Shown: positions 1 to 11,692 of the stretch, piece after piece | How positions within the stretch are numbered: position 1 is the first letter of the stretch | Layout: every line of letters starts with the position of its first letter | Assembly (NCBI RefSeq): GCF_013340205.1 | Contig: NZ_BJTG01000004.1 | Coordinates: forward strand, 124,001-188,000 | Length of the DNA: 64,000 nt | Origin: Anaeromyxobacter diazotrophicus | GTDB taxonomy: Bacteria; Myxococcota; Myxococcia; Myxococcales; Anaeromyxobacteraceae | Reading direction: 5' to 3' | Translations under genes and position numbers: made by a program | Notes under the pieces: model-generated | The model's database searches: none | Seen by the model: only the letters and a program-made list of their open reading frames with translations | Told to the model about the DNA's origin: nothing

Positions 1-530
1 ATCCAGGAGGTCGCGTGCGAGATGAACTTGACCGTTCCCTGGGTGTGCTTCGTGACGTCGTGGCAGATCTGGCAGTCGTCGCGGGTCGGGTTCGCGATCC
101 CGAGGGCGGGGTGCGTGGCCGGGAGCGCCGTGAGCGTGTGGCAGTCGGTGCAGTTGAGCGTGCCCTGGTTCCACGCCACCGTGTGGGCGGGCGCGCCGAG
201 CGGGCTGTGGCAGCCGACGCCGCAGGTGGTCGGCGTGGTGCCGCTGCCGGGCGTGAGGGTGCCGGTGGCGGAGGTGCCGCCCGTGTACGTGTAGCCGTTG
301 AAGGCGAGGACGCCGCCACAGGGATGACACACGGCGCAGGCGATGCCGGACGCGTCGTGCTTGGCGTGCGCGCCGGTGGGCGTGCACTGCGTCGCGGTCG
401 CCGCCGGCCGCTTCGAGACGACACGCCGCTGCCACGTGGCGCCGTCGGCGCTCCCGCCACAGCCGGCGACGAGGAGCGAGAGCCCCGCCGCCGCGGCCAG
501 CGTCGCCGACCACCTTGTCGTGCGCGTCAT
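1..530 (-). CDS. Multiheme c-type cytochrome lipoprotein, CxxCH family (3' end outside window)
   Basis: Only the first 176 codons are present; the gene continues past position 1. The ATG at 530 follows a G-rich Shine-Dalgarno sequence. Residues 1-24 look like a lipoprotein signal with lipobox V-A-G-C24. Heme-type motifs visible are CAVCH, CGVGCH (CX3CH), CTDCH and CQICH. The order and spacing match the N-terminus of the next gene upstream (772-2796), so the two are paralogs that share an N-terminal cap of about four motifs. It is expected to be a periplasm- or outer-membrane-anchored electron carrier. It lies 241 bp downstream of its paralog, with a strong hairpin between, so it may have separate expression. 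Confidence 0.85.
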   Translation of the reverse strand, partial: MTRTTRWSATLAAAAGLSLLVAGCGGSADGATWQRRVVSKRPAATATQCTPTGAHAKHDASGIACAVCHPCGGVLAFNGYTYTGGTSATGTLTPGSGTTPTTCGVGCHSPLGAPAHTVAWNQGTLNCTDCHTLTALPATHPALGIANPTRDDCQICHDVTKHTQGTVKFISHATSW

Positions 531-771: not shown

Positions 772-2796
772 TCAGTGACAGCCGAAGCACGTCGACTTCC
801 ACGTCGGCGTGACCTCGACCGTGCCGTTCACGTGCAGCGCCGGGTTGGTGATGACCGAGCCGGCGCTCCCGGAAGAGGCGTCGGGGTGGCAGAGCTCGCA
901 CTGGCTCCCGCCGGGGTGGCCGACGTGCCAGTACCCGTTCTTGTTCGGCGGGTTGCCGTGGCAGGAGGTGCAGGTCATCGGCCCGTCGGTCCAGAGCGGG
1001 AGGCCGTTGCCGCCGCTGTAGCTGGTCGTGACCTGGACCGGCTGATCGACCGAATAGTCCCAGGCGGTGTACGTGTACGTCCCCGAGTAACCGCCGTGGC
1101 AGTACGTGCTGGCGCAGGTCGCGGTGGCGCGGTTCCAGGAGGGGTTGGCGCCCCCCGCCGTGGCGAGCCCGCCGAACGTCAGGTGGGCCATGCCGTTCAT
1201 GATGTGGCCAGGGGTGAACACGTCGGTGATGGCGGTGTGGCAGCTCGTGCACGCCACCGGGCCGGAGAGGGCGCTGCCCGCGAGGTGGAGGGTGTGGGCG
1301 CCCACGCGGACCGGGTCGGCGGCGTTGCCCCAGGTGGCGCGGGGCGGGGCGCCGGTCTGGCTGTCCACGCCGCCGTGGCACATGAGGCAGTTCTTCGACC
1401 ACGCGAGGACGGTGCCGTCGGGCTGCGTCCGGTCGTGGCACTGGCCGCAGGCGACCTGGGCCAGGCCGCCGGAGAGGTCCTGGCCGTGGCAGGCCTGGCA
1501 AGGACCGAGGCCGCGCTCCGCCGCGTAGGCGTGGAAGCTCGTGCTCGCCGTGTCCATCCACGACGGGTCGTGGCCGGTGGACTGCACCACGCCGTCGAGG
1601 TGCATGCCGCCCTGGCTGGGCGGGATGATCTGGCCGGCCGCGTCCATGGTCTTCGCGTGGCAGACCGCGCAGCCGGTCAGCTCGGCGGCCACCACCGGGT
1701 GCTGCGCCGTCGCGGGCGGGAGACCGTGGCAGGTGCCACAGGCGCCCTGGGACGGGCCGCCGGTCCAGACGGGCTGCGCCGTCCCGTGGCAATAGGTGTT
1801 GCTGCAGGTGGCGGTGGTCCGGTCCCAGGCCGGCGCCACGGCGCCGACGCGCAGGGCGAGCCCGCCGAACGTCACCGTGGCGGTGTCGCCGTCGAGGTGG
1901 CCGATCGCGAAGGCGTCGGCCGGCTTCACGTGGCAGAGCTCGCAGTCGAAGGCGGGCGCGAGCGCGCTGCCGCCGGCGTGCGGGGCGTGCGCGCCCACCC
2001 GCACGAGGTCGGCGTCCTTCCCCCAGGTGGTGCGCGGCGGGGCGCCGCTCGCGTCGTTCTGGCCGCCGTGGCACATGGTGCAGTTCTTCGCCCAGGTGGT
2101 CACGCCGGCCGGCAGGTTCGCGTCGTGGCAGGAGGCGCAGGCGACGCCGCTCGCGCCGCCGGTGAGGTCGCGGCCGTGGCAGTCCTCGCACGCAGCGAGG
2201 CCGCGGTTCGCGGAGAACGCGTGGAAGCTCGGATCCGTCTGGGCCATCCAGGCGGGCTCGTGCGCCCGCAGCTTCACCTTGCCGCTCGTGTGCTGCGACT
2301 GGTCGTGGCAGCCGAGGCAGGTGTCGCGGGTGACCGCGTCGGGCAGCTTCGGGTGTCCCGGCGCGAGCGCGGTGGTGCTGTGGCAGGCGGTGCAGTCGAG
2401 CGGCCCCGCCGTGCCCCAGGTGACGTAGTGCGGATCGCTCCCGAGCGGCGCGTGGCAGGCGACGGCGCAGGTGGTCTGGCCGGCCGCGGAGCCGACCAGC
2501 ACCGTGCCGCCGGCCGTGCCGGTGCCGCCGGGATAGGCGTAGGCGCTGAAGCCGTACGTCCCGCCGTCCGGGTGGCAGACGGCGCAGTCCATCCCCATCG
2601 CGGCGTGCTTGTCGTGCGCGCCGCTGCCGGTGCAGGTGGCCGGCGCGGTGAGCGCCTTCGAGGCAGCTGCCTTGGCGGCGGTGCCGGTCGCGGCGGACGG
2701 CGCGGTGCCGCCGCAGGCGGCGAGGACGAGGCCCATCCCAAGGCAGCAGAGGAGGGCGAGCTGGTGAATCGGCATCTCGAAGCTCGAGCGTGTCAT
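772..2796 (-). CDS. Multiheme c-type cytochrome lipoprotein, about 19 heme motifs
   Basis: 674 residues. The ATG at 2796 is preceded by GAGGGGG; a longer in-frame extension to 2907 would overlap the upstream gene and lacks a signal peptide. Lipobox L-A-A-C28. I count 16 CxxCH, two CX4CH (CSNTYCH and CASTYCH) and one CX3CH. Two modules of about 230 residues each repeat the order seen in the upstream gene: an FHA(Y/F)..ERG or ANRG segment, CxACHGQDL, CxQCH, CTMCHGG, a GAPPRxTWG turn, GAH, a CxxCHxxxxD segment, then the CX4CH. This is the family of Geobacter-type CxxxxCH...CxxCH repeat cytochromes, which carry electrons in metal-reducing bacteria. It starts 22 bp after the stop of the giant paralog and is likely co-transcribed with it. 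The specific electron acceptor cannot be told from sequence. Confidence 0.9.
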   Translation of the reverse strand: MTRSSFEMPIHQLALLCCLGMGLVLAACGGTAPSAATGTAAKAAASKALTAPATCTGSGAHDKHAAMGMDCAVCHPDGGTYGFSAYAYPGGTGTAGGTVLVGSAAGQTTCAVACHAPLGSDPHYVTWGTAGPLDCTACHSTTALAPGHPKLPDAVTRDTCLGCHDQSQHTSGKVKLRAHEPAWMAQTDPSFHAFSANRGLAACEDCHGRDLTGGASGVACASCHDANLPAGVTTWAKNCTMCHGGQNDASGAPPRTTWGKDADLVRVGAHAPHAGGSALAPAFDCELCHVKPADAFAIGHLDGDTATVTFGGLALRVGAVAPAWDRTTATCSNTYCHGTAQPVWTGGPSQGACGTCHGLPPATAQHPVVAAELTGCAVCHAKTMDAAGQIIPPSQGGMHLDGVVQSTGHDPSWMDTASTSFHAYAAERGLGPCQACHGQDLSGGLAQVACGQCHDRTQPDGTVLAWSKNCLMCHGGVDSQTGAPPRATWGNAADPVRVGAHTLHLAGSALSGPVACTSCHTAITDVFTPGHIMNGMAHLTFGGLATAGGANPSWNRATATCASTYCHGGYSGTYTYTAWDYSVDQPVQVTTSYSGGNGLPLWTDGPMTCTSCHGNPPNKNGYWHVGHPGGSQCELCHPDASSGSAGSVITNPALHVNGTVEVTPTWKSTCFGCH
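866..2253. repeat. Two tandem ~690-bp cytochrome modules
   Basis: The WM-(AQ/DT) segments that open the modules sit at about 2247 and 1557, exactly 690 bp apart. Each unit encodes six or seven heme motifs. The same unit, with the same period, occurs four times in the upstream gene. Boundaries are approximate. Confidence 0.75.
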
Positions 2797-2818: not shown

Positions 2819-5800
2819 CTAGTGGCCCCAGCCGCCGCTGCCGCCGCTTCCACTGTCCCAGGTCTCGCTGCCGTGGCAGGTCGGGGAGCAGGTCCGCGTC
2901 GAGGCATTCCAGCTGCGGATGCGCGAGCCGTTCACCTCGATGACGCCGTTCACGTGCCGCGTCTTGTCCACGGTCGTGCTGGTGTAGGTGCCGCCGTGGC
3001 AGTAGCTGCAGGACACCCGGTGCGCGCTCTCGCTGCTGTGCCGGCCGGTGCTCGGAGGCGTGCCATGGCAGGCGGTGCACGACGTGATGCTGCCGGACCA
3101 CGCCGGCGTCTGCAGCGTGCCGCCGGAGCTCGAGCCGCTCACGTCCTTCACGGCGTGGCACCAGGTCGAGGCGCAGCTCGCGGCCGTCGTCCCGCTGCGC
3201 GCGGTATAGGTGCCGACGTTGAAGCTCGCGCTCGTGCCGTTCGTGAAGGCGACGTTCGTGACGCCGTTCGCGTGCGTCGAGGTGTAGGTCCCGACGCTCG
3301 GATGGCAGTCCTGGCAGGCGATGCCGCTCGTGTACGTCTTGCCGGCCACGTGGGCCTGGTGCGCGCCGACGCGGAGGCCGGTCGAGGCGCCGAGCGTGTC
3401 GACCGGCGGGGCAGCGTTGAGCGGCGCGGCCGCGGTGGCGGTCTGGCCCGCCTTGCCGTGGCAGGAGGTGCAGGTCATCGCCACGACATCGAGCGCGCCG
3501 TTCGCGTGCGTTGCCTTGTTGACGCTCGTCGCCGTGTAGCCGGTGTGGCAGTTGCCGCACGCGGTGTTCTGCGGGTGGCCGCCGCCGGGGGGCGCCCCGT
3601 GGCAGGAGGTGCACGAGAGCGTCACGTCCTGCGCCCAGGCGATGGTCGCGTTCGCGCCGTTCTTGAACGCGCCGTGGCAGTACGTGCTGGCGCAGCTCGT
3701 CCCGTTCCAGGTGGGGTTGGGCGTGACGCCGCCCCAGCTCGCGTTCTTCGCCAGCGGGCCGAAGGCGAAGGCGACCGCGCCGTTCGCGTGGCTCGTGTCG
3801 CCCGCCGCCGGCACGGCGTTGAAGTGGCACTCCGCGCAGCCGATCGGCGCCGCCCGGAAGTTGGCCTGGTTCACGTGGCCGAGGTGGGCGCCCACGCCGC
3901 GCGCCGTCACCGCCGCGCTCCCGTGGCTGTCGACCGGCGGCGCCGCCTGGACGTTCGCATCCGCGCCGGAGATCCCGGCGCGGGTCCCGTCGCCGTGGCA
4001 GAGGCTGCAGGTCATGGGGACCACGTCGACCTTGCCGTTCACGTGCGCCGCGGCGTTGACCGTCGTCGCGGTGTAGCCGGCGTGGCAGGTGCCGCAGTCG
4101 GTGCGCGCGACGTGGCCGGAGGTCGGCGGGAGGCCGTGGCAGGTGCCGCAGGCGTCCTGCGTGCCGTCCACCTTGGTCCAGACCGGCTTCGTGAGGGTGC
4201 CGCCGGAGAGCGCGGTGCCGTGGCAGCTCGCGGTCGCGCAGGTGGCGCTCGCGCGGTCCCAGCCGAGCGAGGCGCTCACCTCGGCCGACCCGGCGCCGAG
4301 GTGGCCCGCCGCGAAGGCGTCGGCCGGCTTCACGTGGCAGGCGCCGCAGTCGATGGGCGAGGAGAGCTTCGCGCCGACGTGGGACGAGTGCGCGCCGACG
4401 CGGACGAGGTCGGCCGCCTGGCCCCAGGTGGTGCGGGGCGGCGCGCCGGTCGCGTTGTCGGTGCCGCCGTGGCAGGTGGTGCAGCGCGACGCCCAGCCCG
4501 CCCCGTGGCACTGCGCGCAGGCCACGCCGGCGGAGCCGCCGTCGAGCGCCGCGCCGTGGCAGCTCTGGCAGGTGGCGAGGCCCTGGTTCGCCGTGAAGGC
4601 GTGGAAGCCTGGGCTCGCCTGATCACCCCAGCTGGCCGGGTGGTAGGCGTTGTTCTGGACCGTGCCGTCGAGGTGCTGGCCAGCCGGATAGGGCTTCACG
4701 GCGCCCGTGGCGTCGACGGAGCCCTGGTGGCACATGGCGCACGAGCCGAGGCCGCCCGAGACGGCCGGGTGCGGCGCCGGCGGCGGCGCGCCGTGGCAGG
4801 TGCCGCACTTCGCCTGCGTGCCGTCGAGCGTGGTCCAGGTGGGTTTCGTGTTCGTGCCGCCCTGGAGCGTCGCGCCGTGGCAGTAGGTGCTGGCGCAGGT
4901 CGCCGAGGAGCGATCCCAGGTCGGGACGAGCGAGCCGGTGGTCGCGACGCCGCCGAAGGTCACGGTCGCGAGCGGGCCGTCCACGTGGCCGGCGCTCAGC
5001 GCGTCGGCCGGGGTGACGTGGCAGACGACGCAGTCGTAGGCCTGCGCGCGGGCGCTGCCGCCGACGTGCGCGCCGTGCGCTCCGGTCCGCACGGCGTCGC
5101 CGGACTGGCCCCAGGTGGCCTTGGGGGGCGCGCCGGTCGCGTTGTCTGTACCGCCGTGGCACATCGTGCAGGTGGTCTTCCAGGCCGCCCCGTGGCACTG
5201 GGCGCAGGAGACGCCGGCGAAGCCGCCGCCGAGGTCCTGCCCGTGGCAGGTCTGGCAGGCGGCGAGGCCCCGGTTCGCGGAGAGGGCGTGGAAGCTCGCG
5301 CTGGCCGGATCGACCCAGCTCGGGTCGTGGCTCGCCTTCACGTCCACCGCGCCGTCGAGGTGCTTGCCGCCGGCGCTGGTCGGCTTCACCGCGCCCGAGG
5401 CGTCCACCGAGTCGGGGTGGCAGACCGCGCAGCCGGTGAGCTCGGCAGCGACCGCCGGGTGCGCGCCGCCGGGCGGGAGGCCGTGGCAGGTGCCGCAGGA
5501 GGCCTGGCCCTGGCCGATCTTCGTCCAGTCGGGGAGGTTCTGCGCGTTGCCGTTCGGGAAGGCGCCGTGGCAGTAGGTGCTGGCGCAGGTGGGCGCGGCC
5601 CGGTTCCAGGGCGGCGGCGCGGCGCCGCCCGCGAGCGCGAGCCCGCCGAGCTGGACCGCCGCCGTCGCGCCGTCGATGTGTCCCGGGGCGAAGGCGTCGG
5701 CGGGCTTCACGTGGCAGAGCGCGCAGTCGTAACCCGGCGCGGACGCGCTCGCCTTCACGTGCGCGGTGTGGGCGCCGACGCGGACGAGGTCGGCCGCGTG

Positions 5801-7000
5801 GCCCCAGGTCGCCTTGGGCGGCGCGCCGCTCGGCTCGTGGGAGCCGCCGTGGCACATGGTGCAGGTGGTCGCCCACGCGGCGCCGTGGCACTGCGCGCAG
5901 GAGACGCCGGTGAAGCCGCCCGCGAGGTCCTGCCCGTGGCAGCTCTGGCAGGCGCCGAGGCCGCGGTTGGCGGAGGTCGCGTGGAAGTCGGGGCTCACCG
6001 GCGCCATCCAGGTGGTGGAGTGGCCGGCGGTCACGTCGACCGCGCCGTCGAGGTGCTTCCCGCCCGGCCCAGGCAGCACCTTGCCGGCGGCGTCGACCGA
6101 GGCGGGGTGGCACGTCGCGCAGCCGGTCAGGTCGCCCGGGACGGACGGGTGCGTGCCGCCCGGCGGGAGCGCGTGACACGTGCCGCACTTCGCCTGCTCC
6201 TTGCCGACCTGCGTCCAGTCGGGCGCGTTCTGCGCATTGCCGTTCTTGAAGTTGCCGTGGCAGTACGTCCCGGAGCAGGTGGGCGCCGCGCGGTCCCAGG
6301 CGGCCGGGGTGGCGCCCCCCTGGACCGCCAGGCCGCCGAAGGTGACGGTGGCGTTCGGGCCGTCGACGTGGCCCGGGTCGAGGGCGTCGGTCGGGACCAC
6401 GTGGCAGACGTCGCAGGCGAGCGCCTGGGCGGTGGCGCTGCCCGCCACGTGCGCGGTGTGCGCGCCGACGCGGACGGCGTCGCCCGAGTTGCCGTAGGTG
6501 GCCTTCGGCGGCGCGCCGGTCGTCCCATCGGTGCCGCCGTGGCACATGGTGCAGCTCGTCCGCCACGTGGGCCCGTGGCAGCTCTGGCACCCGACGGTCG
6601 TCTGGCCGCCGACGCCGTCCAGGTTCGCGCCGTGGCAGGTCTGGCAGTCGGAGAGCTTCCGGTTGGCGGCCAGCGCGTGGAAGGCGGGGCTCGCCGGGTC
6701 CATCCAGGTGGCGCCGTGGCCGGTGGTGATGCCGCCGCACGGGTGGCAGTCCGCGCACGTGTACCCGGCCGCCTTGAACTCCTGGTGGCTGGCGGCCGCG
6801 GTGGGGGCGTTGAGCGCGCGAGCGCCCGGGGCCACGCGCCGGGCGGCAGTGGCCGGCGAGGCGGCCGGCGGCGTCGCGGCGGCGGAGCCCGCTCCCGTAG
6901 CGGCCGGGCCTTGTCCGCCACAGGCGAGGAGCAGTGCGGCGAGGGAGCACAGCGCTCCCCGGTGCATGCGCGGAGCCGGGATACCCGGACGTGATGGCAT
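2819..7000 (-). CDS. Giant modular multiheme cytochrome lipoprotein (~40 heme motifs)
   Basis: 1393 residues. The ATG at 7000 follows GGGGG; M12 is an alternative start. Lipobox L-L-A-C27 marks a lipoprotein. I count 33 CxxCH motifs, six CX4CH motifs (CSGTYCH, CASTYCH three times, CATASCH, CASTWCH) and a terminal CX3CH (CSPTCH), so up to 40 hemes. Residues ~98-1020 consist of four tandem modules of 229-232 residues, each with about six CxxCH and one CX4CH in fixed order; the C-terminal third is more divergent. The CX4CH motif falls at the same place in each module, so it is conserved and not random. The likely role is a periplasmic or outer-surface electron conduit in metal or other respiration, as known for this Geobacter-like family; location and partner are inferred. 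It heads the operon, with the 19-heme paralog 22 bp downstream. Confidence 0.92.
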   Translation of the reverse strand: MPSRPGIPAPRMHRGALCSLAALLLACGGQGPAATGAGSAAATPPAASPATAARRVAPGARALNAPTAAASHQEFKAAGYTCADCHPCGGITTGHGATWMDPASPAFHALAANRKLSDCQTCHGANLDGVGGQTTVGCQSCHGPTWRTSCTMCHGGTDGTTGAPPKATYGNSGDAVRVGAHTAHVAGSATAQALACDVCHVVPTDALDPGHVDGPNATVTFGGLAVQGGATPAAWDRAAPTCSGTYCHGNFKNGNAQNAPDWTQVGKEQAKCGTCHALPPGGTHPSVPGDLTGCATCHPASVDAAGKVLPGPGGKHLDGAVDVTAGHSTTWMAPVSPDFHATSANRGLGACQSCHGQDLAGGFTGVSCAQCHGAAWATTCTMCHGGSHEPSGAPPKATWGHAADLVRVGAHTAHVKASASAPGYDCALCHVKPADAFAPGHIDGATAAVQLGGLALAGGAAPPPWNRAAPTCASTYCHGAFPNGNAQNLPDWTKIGQGQASCGTCHGLPPGGAHPAVAAELTGCAVCHPDSVDASGAVKPTSAGGKHLDGAVDVKASHDPSWVDPASASFHALSANRGLAACQTCHGQDLGGGFAGVSCAQCHGAAWKTTCTMCHGGTDNATGAPPKATWGQSGDAVRTGAHGAHVGGSARAQAYDCVVCHVTPADALSAGHVDGPLATVTFGGVATTGSLVPTWDRSSATCASTYCHGATLQGGTNTKPTWTTLDGTQAKCGTCHGAPPPAPHPAVSGGLGSCAMCHQGSVDATGAVKPYPAGQHLDGTVQNNAYHPASWGDQASPGFHAFTANQGLATCQSCHGAALDGGSAGVACAQCHGAGWASRCTTCHGGTDNATGAPPRTTWGQAADLVRVGAHSSHVGAKLSSPIDCGACHVKPADAFAAGHLGAGSAEVSASLGWDRASATCATASCHGTALSGGTLTKPVWTKVDGTQDACGTCHGLPPTSGHVARTDCGTCHAGYTATTVNAAAHVNGKVDVVPMTCSLCHGDGTRAGISGADANVQAAPPVDSHGSAAVTARGVGAHLGHVNQANFRAAPIGCAECHFNAVPAAGDTSHANGAVAFAFGPLAKNASWGGVTPNPTWNGTSCASTYCHGAFKNGANATIAWAQDVTLSCTSCHGAPPGGGHPQNTACGNCHTGYTATSVNKATHANGALDVVAMTCTSCHGKAGQTATAAAPLNAAPPVDTLGASTGLRVGAHQAHVAGKTYTSGIACQDCHPSVGTYTSTHANGVTNVAFTNGTSASFNVGTYTARSGTTAASCASTWCHAVKDVSGSSSGGTLQTPAWSGSITSCTACHGTPPSTGRHSSESAHRVSCSYCHGGTYTSTTVDKTRHVNGVIEVNGSRIRSWNASTRTCSPTCHGSETWDSGSGGSGGWGH
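3940..6710. repeat. Four tandem ~690-bp cytochrome modules
   Basis: Aligned module starts (TWMDPAS, TWMAPVS, SWVDPAS, SWGDQAS) lie at about 6703, 6007, 5314 and 4627, so the periods are 696, 693 and 687 bp. The units encode nearly identical segments such as CTMCHGGTD and CAQCHGA. The regular period is a sign of internal duplication followed by divergence. Confidence 0.85.
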
Positions 7001-7296: not shown

Positions 7297-8421
7297 TCAG
7301 CGCCGTCCCGAGGGCGGCGGCGGCAGCGACCCCTCGTCCAGGACCACCCGCGCCCCTCGCCGCAGCCGCGCGACGAGCGCGTCCACCGCCGCCTGGGCCC
7401 GCTCCCGGCGCAGCTGCTCACCGATGACCGCCCGGACTTCCTGGAAGGGCCGCGCACCGGCGGGAGTGACCACCGCCAGCTGCTCGCGGTAGCGCGCCTC
7501 GATCTCGCGGTCCGAGGGGAGGCCCGCCGCGCTCGCGGTGCGCCTCGCCAGCGCGCGCGCGAGCGCCTTGCGCTCGAAGAGCTGGAGCTGCGCCTCGACC
7601 TCCGGCCCCCGGCCGTGGCCGCGGGCGAGCGCCTCCCGCTCGAGGAGCGCTTGATCGTCGAGCGCGGCCGGCGGCCCCTTTTGCCGCTGGTCCGCGCGCG
7701 CCTGGCGCTGCCGCAGCCCGGCCACGTACCGCTCCAGCGCGGCCTGCCGCAGGCGGTGCTCCGCCTCGGCGCGCAGCTCCGGGTCCGCCTCGGGGAGCCG
7801 CGCCTCGTCGGCGATCTCGCGCTCGTGCACCACGAAGATCGTGTACCCCTTCGCCACCTGGACCGGGCCGGTGGGCGTGTCGAGCGGGGCGGCGAAGGCC
7901 GCCTCGGCGAGCGCGGGCGCGAGGTTCCGGCGCGCCACCCACCCCAGCACGCCCGACTTCGACTGGATGATGGGGTCGGGCGAGCCCTTCGCCTCGTCGA
8001 TGAGGCTCTCGCCGCCCCGGAGCCGCGCCAGCGAGCGCTCGGCCTCCTCGCGGGTGGCGCGCAGCACGAGCGAGAGCCGGACCTGGTCCTCGCGCGCGTG
8101 GAACGGCGGCACGAGGTCGGCGCGGGTGACGCGGACCGCGCGCCACACCTCCGCCTCGAGGAGGCTCTCGACCGCGAGCTGCCGGCGCGCGGCGGCCACG
8201 GCCTGCGCGAGCTCGGGCTCGCGCTGCAGCCCCTCGGCGCGCGCCGCCTGCGCCAGGAGCACCTCGCGGATCTCCGCCTCGAGCGCGGCGAGCATCGGGA
8301 GCCCCGCATCCTGGGCGCGGGCCGCCACCTCGTCGGAGGTGATCGCCTCGTCCTCGACCCGGGCGACCACGGCGCTCGACGGGGGGACGGCGAGCGCGGC
8401 GGCGAGGAGGAGCCCCAGCAT
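7297..8421 (-). CDS. PpiC/SurA-type peptidyl-prolyl cis-trans isomerase
   Basis: 374 residues with an N-terminal signal-like segment (1-17). Residues ~20-105 resemble the SurA N-terminal chaperone helices. Residues ~112-200 form a parvulin rotamase domain, recognised by the GVLGW motif at 157-161, the EAAFAAPLDTPTGPV segment and the closing YTIFVVHERE. A second helical region at 205-370 is rich in Arg, Ala and Glu. It probably helps fold secreted or outer-membrane proteins in the periplasm. It stands alone, with 296 bp before the cytochrome operon and 45 bp after the ADP-ribosylglycohydrolase. A link to cytochrome maturation is possible but not shown. Confidence 0.85.
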   Translation of the reverse strand: MLGLLLAAALAVPPSSAVVARVEDEAITSDEVAARAQDAGLPMLAALEAEIREVLLAQAARAEGLQREPELAQAVAAARRQLAVESLLEAEVWRAVRVTRADLVPPFHAREDQVRLSLVLRATREEAERSLARLRGGESLIDEAKGSPDPIIQSKSGVLGWVARRNLAPALAEAAFAAPLDTPTGPVQVAKGYTIFVVHEREIADEARLPEADPELRAEAEHRLRQAALERYVAGLRQRQARADQRQKGPPAALDDQALLEREALARGHGRGPEVEAQLQLFERKALARALARRTASAAGLPSDREIEARYREQLAVVTPAGARPFQEVRAVIGEQLRRERAQAAVDALVARLRRGARVVLDEGSLPPPPSGRR

Positions 8422-8466: not shown

Positions 8467-9528
8467 TCAGCGCGGCGGGGGAGGGGTGAGCGCCGCGAGC
8501 AGCGTCCGCGGATGGTAGAGGTCGCGGAGCGGCCCCGGCGCCGCCGGGACCGCGCCGAGCACCGCCTCGCGCCAGCGGGCGGGGATGGCGGCCTCGCCGT
8601 GCGCGGCGCCGGCGAGCGCGCCGGCGATGGCGCCGTTCGTGTCGGCGTCCCCGCCCCGGTTCACCGCGTCGACCAGGGCCTCCTCGAAGCTCGGCGCGTG
8701 GAGCAGCTCCCAGAAGGCGAGCCGGAACGCCACGCGCACGAAGCCCTGGGTGCGGTGCAGGTGGACGTCGCGGCCGTGGAGGCGCGGGTCCGGCTCCCCC
8801 GCGAGCGCGAGGTCCAGCTCGAGCGCCCGCGCCGCGCTCGCCACGTCGCGCGCGCCGGCGCCCTCCGCCCGCAGCGCCTCCGCGGCGAGCGGGAGCTCCC
8901 GGAGGGCGGCGTCGCGCATCGCCTCGGGCCGCGCGTCCGCCTCGATGGCCGCCGCCAGCGCCGCGTCGAAGGCGGCGCAGGCGAGGCGGCAGCGCGGGTC
9001 GAAGTGCGTGATGGCCGCGTCGGCCAGGGCCGCCGCGCGGCGCGCCCCGGCGCCGGCGAGGAGCACGGCGATGGGCGCGGTGCGCATCAGGGCGCCGTTC
9101 CCGGCCGGTCGGCGCGCGGCGCGCTTCCACAGCTCGAACCCGGCGCGCTGGGCGGGGCGGCCCTCGCGGATGGCGTTCAGCGCCGCGGCCGTCTGGGTGC
9201 CGATGTCGAACGCGGCCTCCTGCCAGGCCACGTAGCGCGACGCGACGTCGTCGCAGTCGAAGCCTCCCCGTGCCTGCAGCGAGGCGGCCAGGCAGCAGGC
9301 CATCTGCGTGTCGTCGGTGACCTGGCCCGCCACGAGCCGGAATGGGCCGCCGCCGAGGATCTCGCGGTGTGGGCCGCGGGCGAGGGTAGGGAAGGGCGGT
9401 GCCCTGGGCTCGCTGAACTCGAGCGTGGTGCCCAGCGCGTCACCGACCGCCAATCCGAGGAGCGCCCCCCGCGAGCGCTCCTGGGACGGCGGCGGCGACG
9501 GCTGAGCCCCCGCATCCTGCGAGACCAT
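8467..9528 (-). CDS. ADP-ribosylglycohydrolase family protein
   Basis: 353 residues from the ATG at 9528, the first start before the conserved GLAVGDALG segment; the Shine-Dalgarno sequence is weak. Family motifs for the dinuclear metal site are present: TDDTQM at 71-76, NGALMR at 144-149 and GGDADTNGA at 292-300. These enzymes remove ADP-ribose from proteins or small molecules (the DraG/ARH fold). There is no nitrogenase, DraT or other ADP-ribosyltransferase in this window, so the substrate is unknown. The length is typical of bacterial members. It is likely cytoplasmic, since no signal peptide is seen. Confidence 0.85.
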   Translation of the reverse strand: MVSQDAGAQPSPPPSQERSRGALLGLAVGDALGTTLEFSEPRAPPFPTLARGPHREILGGGPFRLVAGQVTDDTQMACCLAASLQARGGFDCDDVASRYVAWQEAAFDIGTQTAAALNAIREGRPAQRAGFELWKRAARRPAGNGALMRTAPIAVLLAGAGARRAAALADAAITHFDPRCRLACAAFDAALAAAIEADARPEAMRDAALRELPLAAEALRAEGAGARDVASAARALELDLALAGEPDPRLHGRDVHLHRTQGFVRVAFRLAFWELLHAPSFEEALVDAVNRGGDADTNGAIAGALAGAAHGEAAIPARWREAVLGAVPAAPGPLRDLYHPRTLLAALTPPPPR

Positions 9529-9599
9529 GAAGTTCGCTGTCAGCCCGAGCCGGCGGGCGACTGCTTGTGAGGAGGAGGTCGGAGGTGGCCCCCTTGTGA

Positions 9600-9618
9600 C
9601 TGCGGCAGGACGCCGCAG
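9600..9618 (-). terminator. Hairpin after the EAL gene
   Basis: CTGCGGC, a 5-nt loop, then GCCGCAG is a perfect 7-bp stem located 12-30 nt after the EAL stop codon. No U-tract follows on the minus strand. Confidence 0.4.
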
Positions 9619-9629
9619 CTGCGGGACGG

Positions 9630-10442
9630 CTACGCGGCGCGGGTCCGAAACTGGCCGCGGAACAGGAAGCCCTGCACTGCGTCCACCCCGAGCGCCGCGG
9701 CGAGCTCGAGCTGGGACTCGGTCTCCACGCCCTCGAGGATGGTGCGGGCGCCGAGCCGACGGGCGAGGCCCAGCAGCGCCTCCAGGATGGCGCGCTCGCG
9801 GGGGTCGCCCATCCGGCCGAGCCAGGAGGCATCGAGCTTCAGCACGTCGGCGTCCTTGAGGGTCTCGAGCGAGAGGAGCGCGTCGGGCGCCCCCACGTCG
9901 TCGAGCGCCACCGGCATCGAGCGCTCGCGCAGCGCGCTCACCAGCTCCCGGCCGTAGCGGGCGTCGGCGAAGCACATCGTCTCGATGACCTCCACCACCA
10001 CCGGCTGCTCCCGCGCCTGGATCACGTCGAGGAGCCCGTTCGCGCTGCCGTTCCGGCCCGCATGGAAGCTGTCGGGGTCCACGTTGAGGTGGAGGGGGCC
10101 GTCGGGGGCGTTCTCGATCTGGAACCGCTTCGTCTCCGCCTCCACGTACAGGAGGAGCGAGGGTTCCTCGTGCAGGCGCGCGAACACCGCGCCCGGCGAG
10201 ACGGGGCCGCCCTGCGCGTCGAAGAAGCGCGAGAGCGCCTCGTGTCCGATCGTCTCGCCGGTGTGCAGGTCCACGATGGGCTGGTACTCGACGGCGAAGC
10301 GGCGCCCGAGGACGAGCGCCAGAACGTCACACGAGCTCGGAACCGAGACGGGCAGCCTCGGGCGCCCGTCTTCCGCGAGGTGGCCGTGAGCACGGGCGCT
10401 TCCGAAGAGCTGTTCGTTCATGGAGGGGCGCACCTGGGTCAT
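9630..10442 (-). CDS. EAL-domain cyclic di-GMP phosphodiesterase, stand-alone
   Basis: 270 residues from the ATG at 10442, which has AGGCGG just upstream; an in-frame ATG at 10484 is possible but has no ribosome site. The EAL domain covers residues ~40-265. Catalytic and metal positions visible are E68 of EAL, N120 (LHLNVDP), E151, D181-D182, K202 (LKLD), E237 (EGVE) and Q257 (QGFLF). Loop 6, normally DDFGTG, reads DDVGAP, which may weaken dimerisation-dependent activity. No GGDEF, receiver or sensor domain is attached. It probably lowers cyclic di-GMP in the cytoplasm. Residues 1-40 show no known domain. Confidence 0.85.
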   Translation of the reverse strand: MTQVRPSMNEQLFGSARAHGHLAEDGRPRLPVSVPSSCDVLALVLGRRFAVEYQPIVDLHTGETIGHEALSRFFDAQGGPVSPGAVFARLHEEPSLLLYVEAETKRFQIENAPDGPLHLNVDPDSFHAGRNGSANGLLDVIQAREQPVVVEVIETMCFADARYGRELVSALRERSMPVALDDVGAPDALLSLETLKDADVLKLDASWLGRMGDPRERAILEALLGLARRLGARTILEGVETESQLELAAALGVDAVQGFLFRGQFRTRAA

Positions 10443-10564
10443 CCGCCTACACGTAGCATTATTGCGGCACGTGTGGGATGACACCAGAGACGCACAGTGG
10501 TCTGACGCGAGGTCCCGTCACCGCAAGAAACGCCTGCAGTGACGATGGCTTAGGCCCCAGGGCT

Positions 10565-11692
10565 TCAGTCCGCGACCACCCAGCCCACCGAGGCGGCGAC
10601 GGAGAGCGTGAAGCCTCCGACGCTCCCCCCCGCGCCGTCGGACGGACGGGTGAGGTCCGAGAGCCCGGTGAGCGTGAGGCCGACCGTCGATCGATTGCCC
10701 AGCCATTCGACGCCCACCCGGCCGCCGAGCGCTGGCATCATGTTGAGCGACGGCCGCTGAGCGGCGTCGAAGCCGCCGACGCCGAGGACGATCGCGTTGA
10801 AGCGGGGGCGGAGCGGGATGACGGTGCCGCCGCCCAGCAGGCCGAGCGTCCGGCCGGGGGTCTCGACGCTGACCGAGAGCAGGTAGCCGTCCTGGCGGGC
10901 CGTGAAGTAGAAGGCGGGCCCGCCCGACGCCCCCTGGCCGGCGCCGCTCGAGCCCGCGAAGCCGGCCGACAGGATGCGGGTGAACCGCCGGTCGCGATCC
11001 ACGGGCGAGTCCAGGTCGGCGGGGGTGGAGCGCGCGATCAGGGCGCCGGCCGCGGCCGGCGGGGCGGCGCCGCTCGCAGCGGGCGCGGCGACGCCGCTCG
11101 CGGCGGGGGCGGCGACCCCGCTCGTGGCGGGCGCGGCCGCGGCGAGGGCGGGGGCGGCGGCCGCGGGCGAAGCGGGCGCGCCGGCGGTGGGCGCGGCGGC
11201 CTGCGGCGGCGGCTCGGCCTTCGCCTGCATCATCGCGGGCGCGGGGGGCGGCTTCACCTCGTGGCACTGCCGGCAAGCCATCGGCCCGCGCTGCTGCTCG
11301 CGGTGGCAGCCGATGCACCGGTCGTGGGCGACGCGCGGCGTGAACTCGATCTTCGTGACCGGCCCCTTGCCGTGGCAGTCGGCGCAGTGCGCCTTGCGAG
11401 CCAGGTGAGCGCGGTGGTCGATGGTGACGGTGCCGAAGGAGCGGGTGGTGCGGACGACCTTCTCGGGCGGCGGAGCGAGCGCGGCCAGCGCCGCGTCGCG
11501 CAGCGCCTCGGCGCCTCCCGACGCGGAGAGCGCCTCGCCGAGCACGGCGCGATCCGGCACCGAGGTCGAGGCGGACAGCGCCGTGTCGCGCACGGCCTGC
11601 TGCGGTGCGCCGCCCGCACCGAGCGCCAAGGCCGCCAGCGTGGCGAGCAGCGAGACAGGCATCCACTCGAGCGTACAGCAACTCACCCCCAT
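10565..11692 (-). CDS. Triheme cytochrome c7-like domain fused by an Ala/Pro linker to a beta-rich domain
   Basis: 375 residues if it starts at the ATG at 11692; the ATG at 11662 (M11) puts the signal peptide (MPVSLLATLAALALGAG) at the true N-terminus and may be the real start. Three heme motifs form a compact c3/c7-like unit: CADCH 103-107, CIGCH 126-130 and CRQCH 140-144, preceded by the FGTV..DHRAH segment typical of such triheme domains. Residues 148-218 are a low-complexity Ala/Pro linker with repeats of AAPAASGV type. Residues ~235-375 alternate polar and hydrophobic residues with many glycines, like outer-membrane strands, but I do not recognise the family. It is secreted, and likely links heme electron transfer to the outer membrane; this last point is inference. 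Confidence 0.75.
   Translation of the reverse strand: MGVSCCTLEWMPVSLLATLAALALGAGGAPQQAVRDTALSASTSVPDRAVLGEALSASGGAEALRDAALAALAPPPEKVVRTTRSFGTVTIDHRAHLARKAHCADCHGKGPVTKIEFTPRVAHDRCIGCHREQQRGPMACRQCHEVKPPPAPAMMQAKAEPPPQAAAPTAGAPASPAAAAPALAAAAPATSGVAAPAASGVAAPAASGAAPPAAAGALIARSTPADLDSPVDRDRRFTRILSAGFAGSSGAGQGASGGPAFYFTARQDGYLLSVSVETPGRTLGLLGGGTVIPLRPRFNAIVLGVGGFDAAQRPSLNMMPALGGRVGVEWLGNRSTVGLTLTGLSDLTRPSDGAGGSVGGFTLSVAASVGWVVAD

Follow-up and report, generated by a model that had tools for sequence, protein, structure and literature searches.

The window analysed here, a stretch of 64,000 nucleotides from Anaeromyxobacter diazotrophicus (genome G000, contig NZ_BJTG01000004.1, positions 124,001 to 188,000), contains a gene for a predicted lipoprotein of 1393 amino acids, here called A40, which runs on the minus strand from an ATG at position 7000 to a TAG at 2819-2821 and carries 33 CxxCH, six CX4CH and one CX3CH motifs, i.e., 40 CH sites (Table 1). 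On recounting, all three motif numbers given by the first-pass annotation were recovered exactly, as were its coordinates, to which the strand can now be added. By comparison, 2000 composition shuffles of the protein yielded a mean of 0.29 CxxCH and 0.28 CX4CH, with a maximum of 3. Given that the GC content of this frame reaches 0.97 at the third codon position, as against 0.64 and 0.66 at the first and second, the minus strand is the coding one, and a 1399-aa open reading frame lying over the same bases on the plus strand was rejected as an antisense shadow.

Table 1. Features of the A40 gene and its surroundings (positions in the window).
Feature	Position	Strand	Basis
F19, second 19-heme lipoprotein, C-terminal part	1..530	-	whole gene G000:C4:122518-124530
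B19, 19-heme lipoprotein with two 7-heme modules	772..2796	-	motif count, module HMM; starts 22 bp past the A40 stop
A40, TIGR01904 family, 40 c-type heme sites	2819..7000	-	motif count, profile match, GC3
C-terminal end of A40 with CX3CH (CSPTCHGSETW)	2822..2971	-	CX4CH counterpart (CSSLSCHGSETW or CSGLSCHGSESW) in three positional counterparts
5-heme unit 2, residues 1161-1343	2972..3520	-	motif order; 5 CH and 5 distal His columns over 123 units
5-heme unit 1, residues 986-1160	3521..4045	-	motif order; 5 CH and 5 distal His columns over 123 units
7-heme module 4, residues 768-979	4064..4699	-	module HMM, 285 bits
7-heme module 3, residues 539-766	4703..5386	-	module HMM, 355 bits
7-heme module 2, residues 310-536	5393..6073	-	module HMM, 344 bits
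7-heme module 1, residues 80-306, including the extra N-terminal CADCH	6083..6763	-	module HMM, 325.6 bits
Predicted signal peptide with lipobox (MPSRPGIPAPRMHRGALCSLAALLLAC; LLAC), no Asp at +2	6920..7000	-	read from the translation
PpiC-type prolyl isomerase, upstream of A40	7297..8421	-	PF13145 and PF00639
Presumed ADP-ribosylglycohydrolase-like protein	8467..9975	-	by eye
Presumed EAL-domain-like protein	9630..10484	-	by eye
c7-like protein, three CxxCH; C-terminal part barrel-like	10565..11692	-	barrel-like part by eye

The sites of A40 follow the order 1 + 7 + 7 + 7 + 7 + 5 + 5 + 1 = 40. The earlier description of 40 hemes made from four 7-heme modules is borne out as regards the modular build and the number of modules, but these modules hold just 28 of the 40 sites, the others being a site at the N-terminus, those of the two 5-heme units and the C-terminal CX3CH. 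The modules are spaced at 687, 690 and 693 bp, with 696 bp for one stretch (229-231 aa at the protein level), in keeping with the periods of 696, 693 and 687 bp reported before, and when the end-to-end alignment on which the modular reading had been made to depend was run, all four matched over their full length at 46-61% identity, with an identical order of motifs. The terminus of module 4 has the form of a 7-to-5 junction, which is also present in relatives.

The histidines of the units follow the same arithmetic. Among 16 7-heme modules drawn from four proteins encoded in this genome (a seventeenth row, affected by a three-residue cutting error, was left out), the invariant His residues number exactly seven within the CXnCH motifs and seven outside them, while 123 five-heme units of the family have an invariant His in each of their five motifs and another five His that are conserved in 93% or more. 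Given these numbers (7+7 and 5+5), every unit site of A40, including the CX4CH sites, has one potential distal His partner in the sequence, as is expected of bis-His multiheme proteins, and this parity is what full bis-His loading would need. The CX4CH heme, which the first-pass annotation considered special, is not evidently so, judging from the motif itself, which is the signature of TIGR01904, from the number of distal His, which equals that of the hemes per unit, and from the slot in the arrays examined, which holds CX4CH in 196 cases and CX3CH in 53 (53/249, about a fifth); tetraheme cytochrome c3, moreover, carries CX4CH twice (PMC10454114). Attachment of the hemes probably proceeds through system II, given that this genome yielded no match to CcmF_C, a marker of Ccm system I, and encodes ResB/CcsA-type proteins. 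The genome has two loci of the ResB/CcsA type plus a further CcsA-like protein (G000:C6:206898-208808, C5:390164-392213 and C6:156244-156816), and these several heme-attachment proteins may possibly differ in the motifs that they prefer.

The profile comparison with the CxxxxCH...CxxCH repeat family, which had been suggested beforehand, places A40 in TIGR01904, with a score of 185.6 bits (cut-off 27) and six matched stretches, and PF09698 also matches (47.7 bits, cut-off 21.7), so that the protein passes the curated cut-offs of the GSu_C4xC__C2xCH family in both databases. Each of its six CX4CH motifs is followed by a CxxCH, which is the repeat that these models describe. The TIGR01904 model, however, covers 73 residues around a CX4CH and the next CxxCH, whereas the 7-heme unit of A40 is larger and has three clustered CxxCH ahead of the CX4CH part. 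A further profile of the MtrC/MtrF fold, PF22113, scored 87.4 bits against a threshold of 30, possibly driven by CxxCH spacing, and the split-barrel domains I and III of MtrC/MtrF gave no profile match in A40. The whole protein matched a single PDB entry, an aldolase (E = 0.0004), which was discounted because it probably reflects biased composition, and the module profile retrieved only weak matches from the PDB, with UndA at E = 0.0055 amid DnaJ chains, which were not counted as evidence. AlphaFold2 produced no usable model of one module (23 alignment rows, pLDDT 53.5) or of two (5 rows, pLDDT 37.4).

Downstream of A40, the order of genes is B19, F19, an NHL-type propeller, a 471-aa hexaheme protein and a second propeller, beyond which lie a 745-aa barrel-like protein, a GNA1162-like lipoprotein, a 405-aa protein, a PpiC-type isomerase and two proteins with 26 and 16 sites, both with paired CxxCH. 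The start of B19 is preceded by GAGGGGG, and A40 and B19 are probably parts of one operon. The prolyl isomerase upstream of A40 might also be linked to it functionally. The 745-aa protein has no match in Pfam or NCBIfam, and the 471-aa protein is a homologue of OmcS that aligns with the whole chain of PDB 6ef8 (E = 1.8e-130). That A40 stands, together with two 19-heme lipoproteins, beside an OmcS-type nanowire cluster had been missed in the first-pass annotation. The block recurs, wholly or in part, in nine related genomes with its order kept, the NHL gene alone differing in position, and is presumably the counterpart of the GSU2500-GSU2493 OmcS secretion block. In the published excerpt describing it, this Geobacter block of eight genes, located by omcS homologues, is associated with the maturation and secretion of nanowires (PMC12977616), and OmcS homologues have already been reported in Anaeromyxobacter (PMC10954620). 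The likeness of the island to the OmcS nanowire system, as far as the excerpts of its description extend, lies in the close OmcS homologue and in a block of similar content (6ef8; PMC12977616; PMC10954620), whereas A40 itself returned no OmcS match in a sequence search of the PDB and does not count as an OmcS homologue by that measure.

Seven genomes have giant arrays at distances of 0.15-8.5 kb from an OmcS homologue, and a random placement that close would be expected in about 0.3-0.6% per genome, although the seven share ancestry and are not independent; in G003, G011 and G017 the arrays were seen at least 16 kb from omcS. This clustering does not prove contact between A40 and OmcS, which may nevertheless occur. 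In the same genus, one genome that is 92% complete (G010) gave just one match to TIGR01904 and none to OmcS, and the extracellular system may have been lost in this sister species or may fall into gaps of the assembly. A second giant array of the A. diazotrophicus genome was seen outside the window (G000:C4:97288-103806, plus strand; L009:13288-19806), where it encodes a 2172-aa lipoprotein with 63 CH and eight 7-heme modules, two of which have CX3CH in place of CX4CH.

A cytochrome with 40 hemes is already known in Anaeromyxobacter, a point that had been overlooked, since that of A. dehalogenans 2CP-C, from the same bacterial family and with 40 sites like A40, was published in 2008 (PMC2330069). 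Arrays in three genomes (G001, G002 and G007) have the same 33/6/1 motif counts as A40 and align with it at about 42%, but they place two adjacent 7-heme units between 5-heme units and differ from it at both ends; given these differences in unit order and ends, the equal counts are partly a coincidence, and a strict orthology between A40 and the A. dehalogenans type of 40-heme protein was rejected. The ends of A40 fit arrays of 51, 61 and 65 sites better. Site numbers as high as this are shared with the giant S-layer cytochromes of ANME archaea, which have 20-80 sites, yet those are archaeal S-layer fusions, for which the excerpt of the source describes no unit array of the A40 type (PMC9012536). 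The longest frame seen in the family, in a draft genome, has 3902 codons with 94 CH sites in 5-heme units (L024:368-12073, minus strand, G014:C28), as against the 20-80 sites given for ANME in that excerpt (PMC9012536).

On a smaller scale, metagenome-assembled genomes (MAGs) of Ignavibacteria and Bacteroidota contain loci with a lipoprotein of a single 7-heme module, usually next to a protein of 12 or 14 sites. Their module is 29-41% identical to those of A40, with all of the heme sites and nearly all of the ligands kept, the difference being that these proteins have mostly one unit each and A40 is a multi-unit array. In two loci that were read, the preceding protein is barrel-like, has a signal peptide and ends in F, as outer-membrane barrels do. 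With the ignavibacterial barrel-like protein as the query, no match was found in the A. diazotrophicus genome, although this is a weak test, as barrels change fast. Given that the single-unit loci have the arrangement of porin-cytochrome clusters, whose layout has been described (PMC4245776), the analogy suggests that the outer surface is where the single 7-heme unit works. The corresponding parts at the A40 locus would be the predicted lipobox, LLAC, for the lipoprotein signal, and the nearby genes of the 26- and 16-heme proteins, together with that of the 745-aa barrel-like protein without a family match. As a member of its family, A40 is ordinary, and the surprising parts are the arithmetic of its units, the series of lengths and the link to nanowire genes.

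The motif strings of the family's giant proteins consist mostly of 3-, 5- and 7-heme units in succession. Four positional counterparts of A40, each followed by a 19-heme gene, have 61 (G005), 61 (G009), 51 (G006) and 65 (G016) sites, and in all four the N-terminal 7-heme unit resembles module 1 of A40 best at its start (by a narrow margin of 135 vs 130 in G006) and module 4 best at its end. A C-terminal CxxxxCHGSE(T/S)W is common to three of the four and absent from the 65-site protein. The simplest reading of these sequences would be that one unit became four in the A40 lineage, or that four became one in the others, the direction being left undecided by the module tree, which has weak deep support. 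Proteins of 58 and 48 sites from two species match end to end, with end units 79-92% identical, and differ in having four copies vs one of one unit type and two vs three of another. In the 58-site array of G006 (L029:4193-10468, minus strand, G006:C1), two 498-bp units have identical DNA and their neighbours are 87-95% identical (three more at 87-93%), which points to duplication or gene conversion in the very recent past, unless it is an assembly effect. The tuning of length by duplication that had been proposed for A40 finds its parallel in these arrays of related species, which differ by whole units, and the number of units most likely changes in evolution by duplication and loss between conserved ends.

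Taken together, it appears rather probable that A40 works as a surface-anchored relay or buffer of electrons in extracellular respiration, with an OmcS-type system. The protein would be anchored in the outer membrane and probably exposed on the surface, as a string of self-contained bis-His heme units consisting of the N-terminal site, the four 7-heme and two 5-heme units and the C-terminal site. Electrons would reach it from a trans-outer-membrane conduit formed by the 26-heme and 16-heme proteins and the barrel-like partner of the same island, and would be passed on or held at the surface, either next to a filament of the OmcS type and extracellular acceptors, metal oxides among them, or on the way to these. 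The number of units would set both the reach and the electron capacity of A40, and would shift through the duplication or loss of whole units.

A role mainly in storage, as proposed for the large cytochromes of A. dehalogenans (PMC2330069), in which A40 would hold electrons whenever acceptors run short and capacity, not reach, would depend on the number of units, accords with a unit number that varies with no obvious fixed length, but it appears unlikely, given that the placement by the OmcS secretion block suggests a setting of transport, with which storage is nevertheless compatible. The same placement could mean that A40, B19 and F19 are an accessory of nanowire export, serving to anchor or charge an OmcS-type filament at its base and not as a general surface reductase, since the three genes immediately precede those for the NHL protein and OmcS, with all of them on one strand, and arrays are close to omcS in the seven genomes mentioned above. 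This reading also appears improbable, as array and nearest omcS are on opposite strands or several genes apart in some genomes, the excerpted description of GSU2500-GSU2493 mentions no giant array (PMC12977616), and the 63-site array of A. diazotrophicus lies about 16 kb from omcS.

Finally, tandem units recombine easily, and the variation in length may be drift without function, as the wide range of array lengths and the two identical 498-bp units with neighbours at 91-95% in one relative (G006) would allow. Such neutral expansion seems quite unlikely, however, given that the Cys and distal His are retained, so that the units, whatever the length of the array, stay subject to selection as heme units.

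The lengths of A40 and its relatives form a natural series, with 40, 51, 61 and 65 sites among the positional counterparts and 48 and 58 in another set, which could be used to test directly how the length of a heme chain relates to reach, capacity and rate, and the single-unit relatives of Ignavibacteria offer a way to see the action of one unit alone. Filaments of the OmcS type lengthen by polymerising, whereas here the number of hemes is written in the gene. It may tentatively be proposed, as a possibility still open to considerable doubt, that the Anaeromyxobacteraceae maintain covalent, membrane-anchored heme wires, with a length set genetically through the gain or loss of whole 3-, 5- or 7-heme units between fixed ends, and that these wires cooperate with self-assembling OmcS-type filaments. 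If true, this would be a second, gene-encoded route to the length of a biological wire, with up to 94 sites per reading frame.
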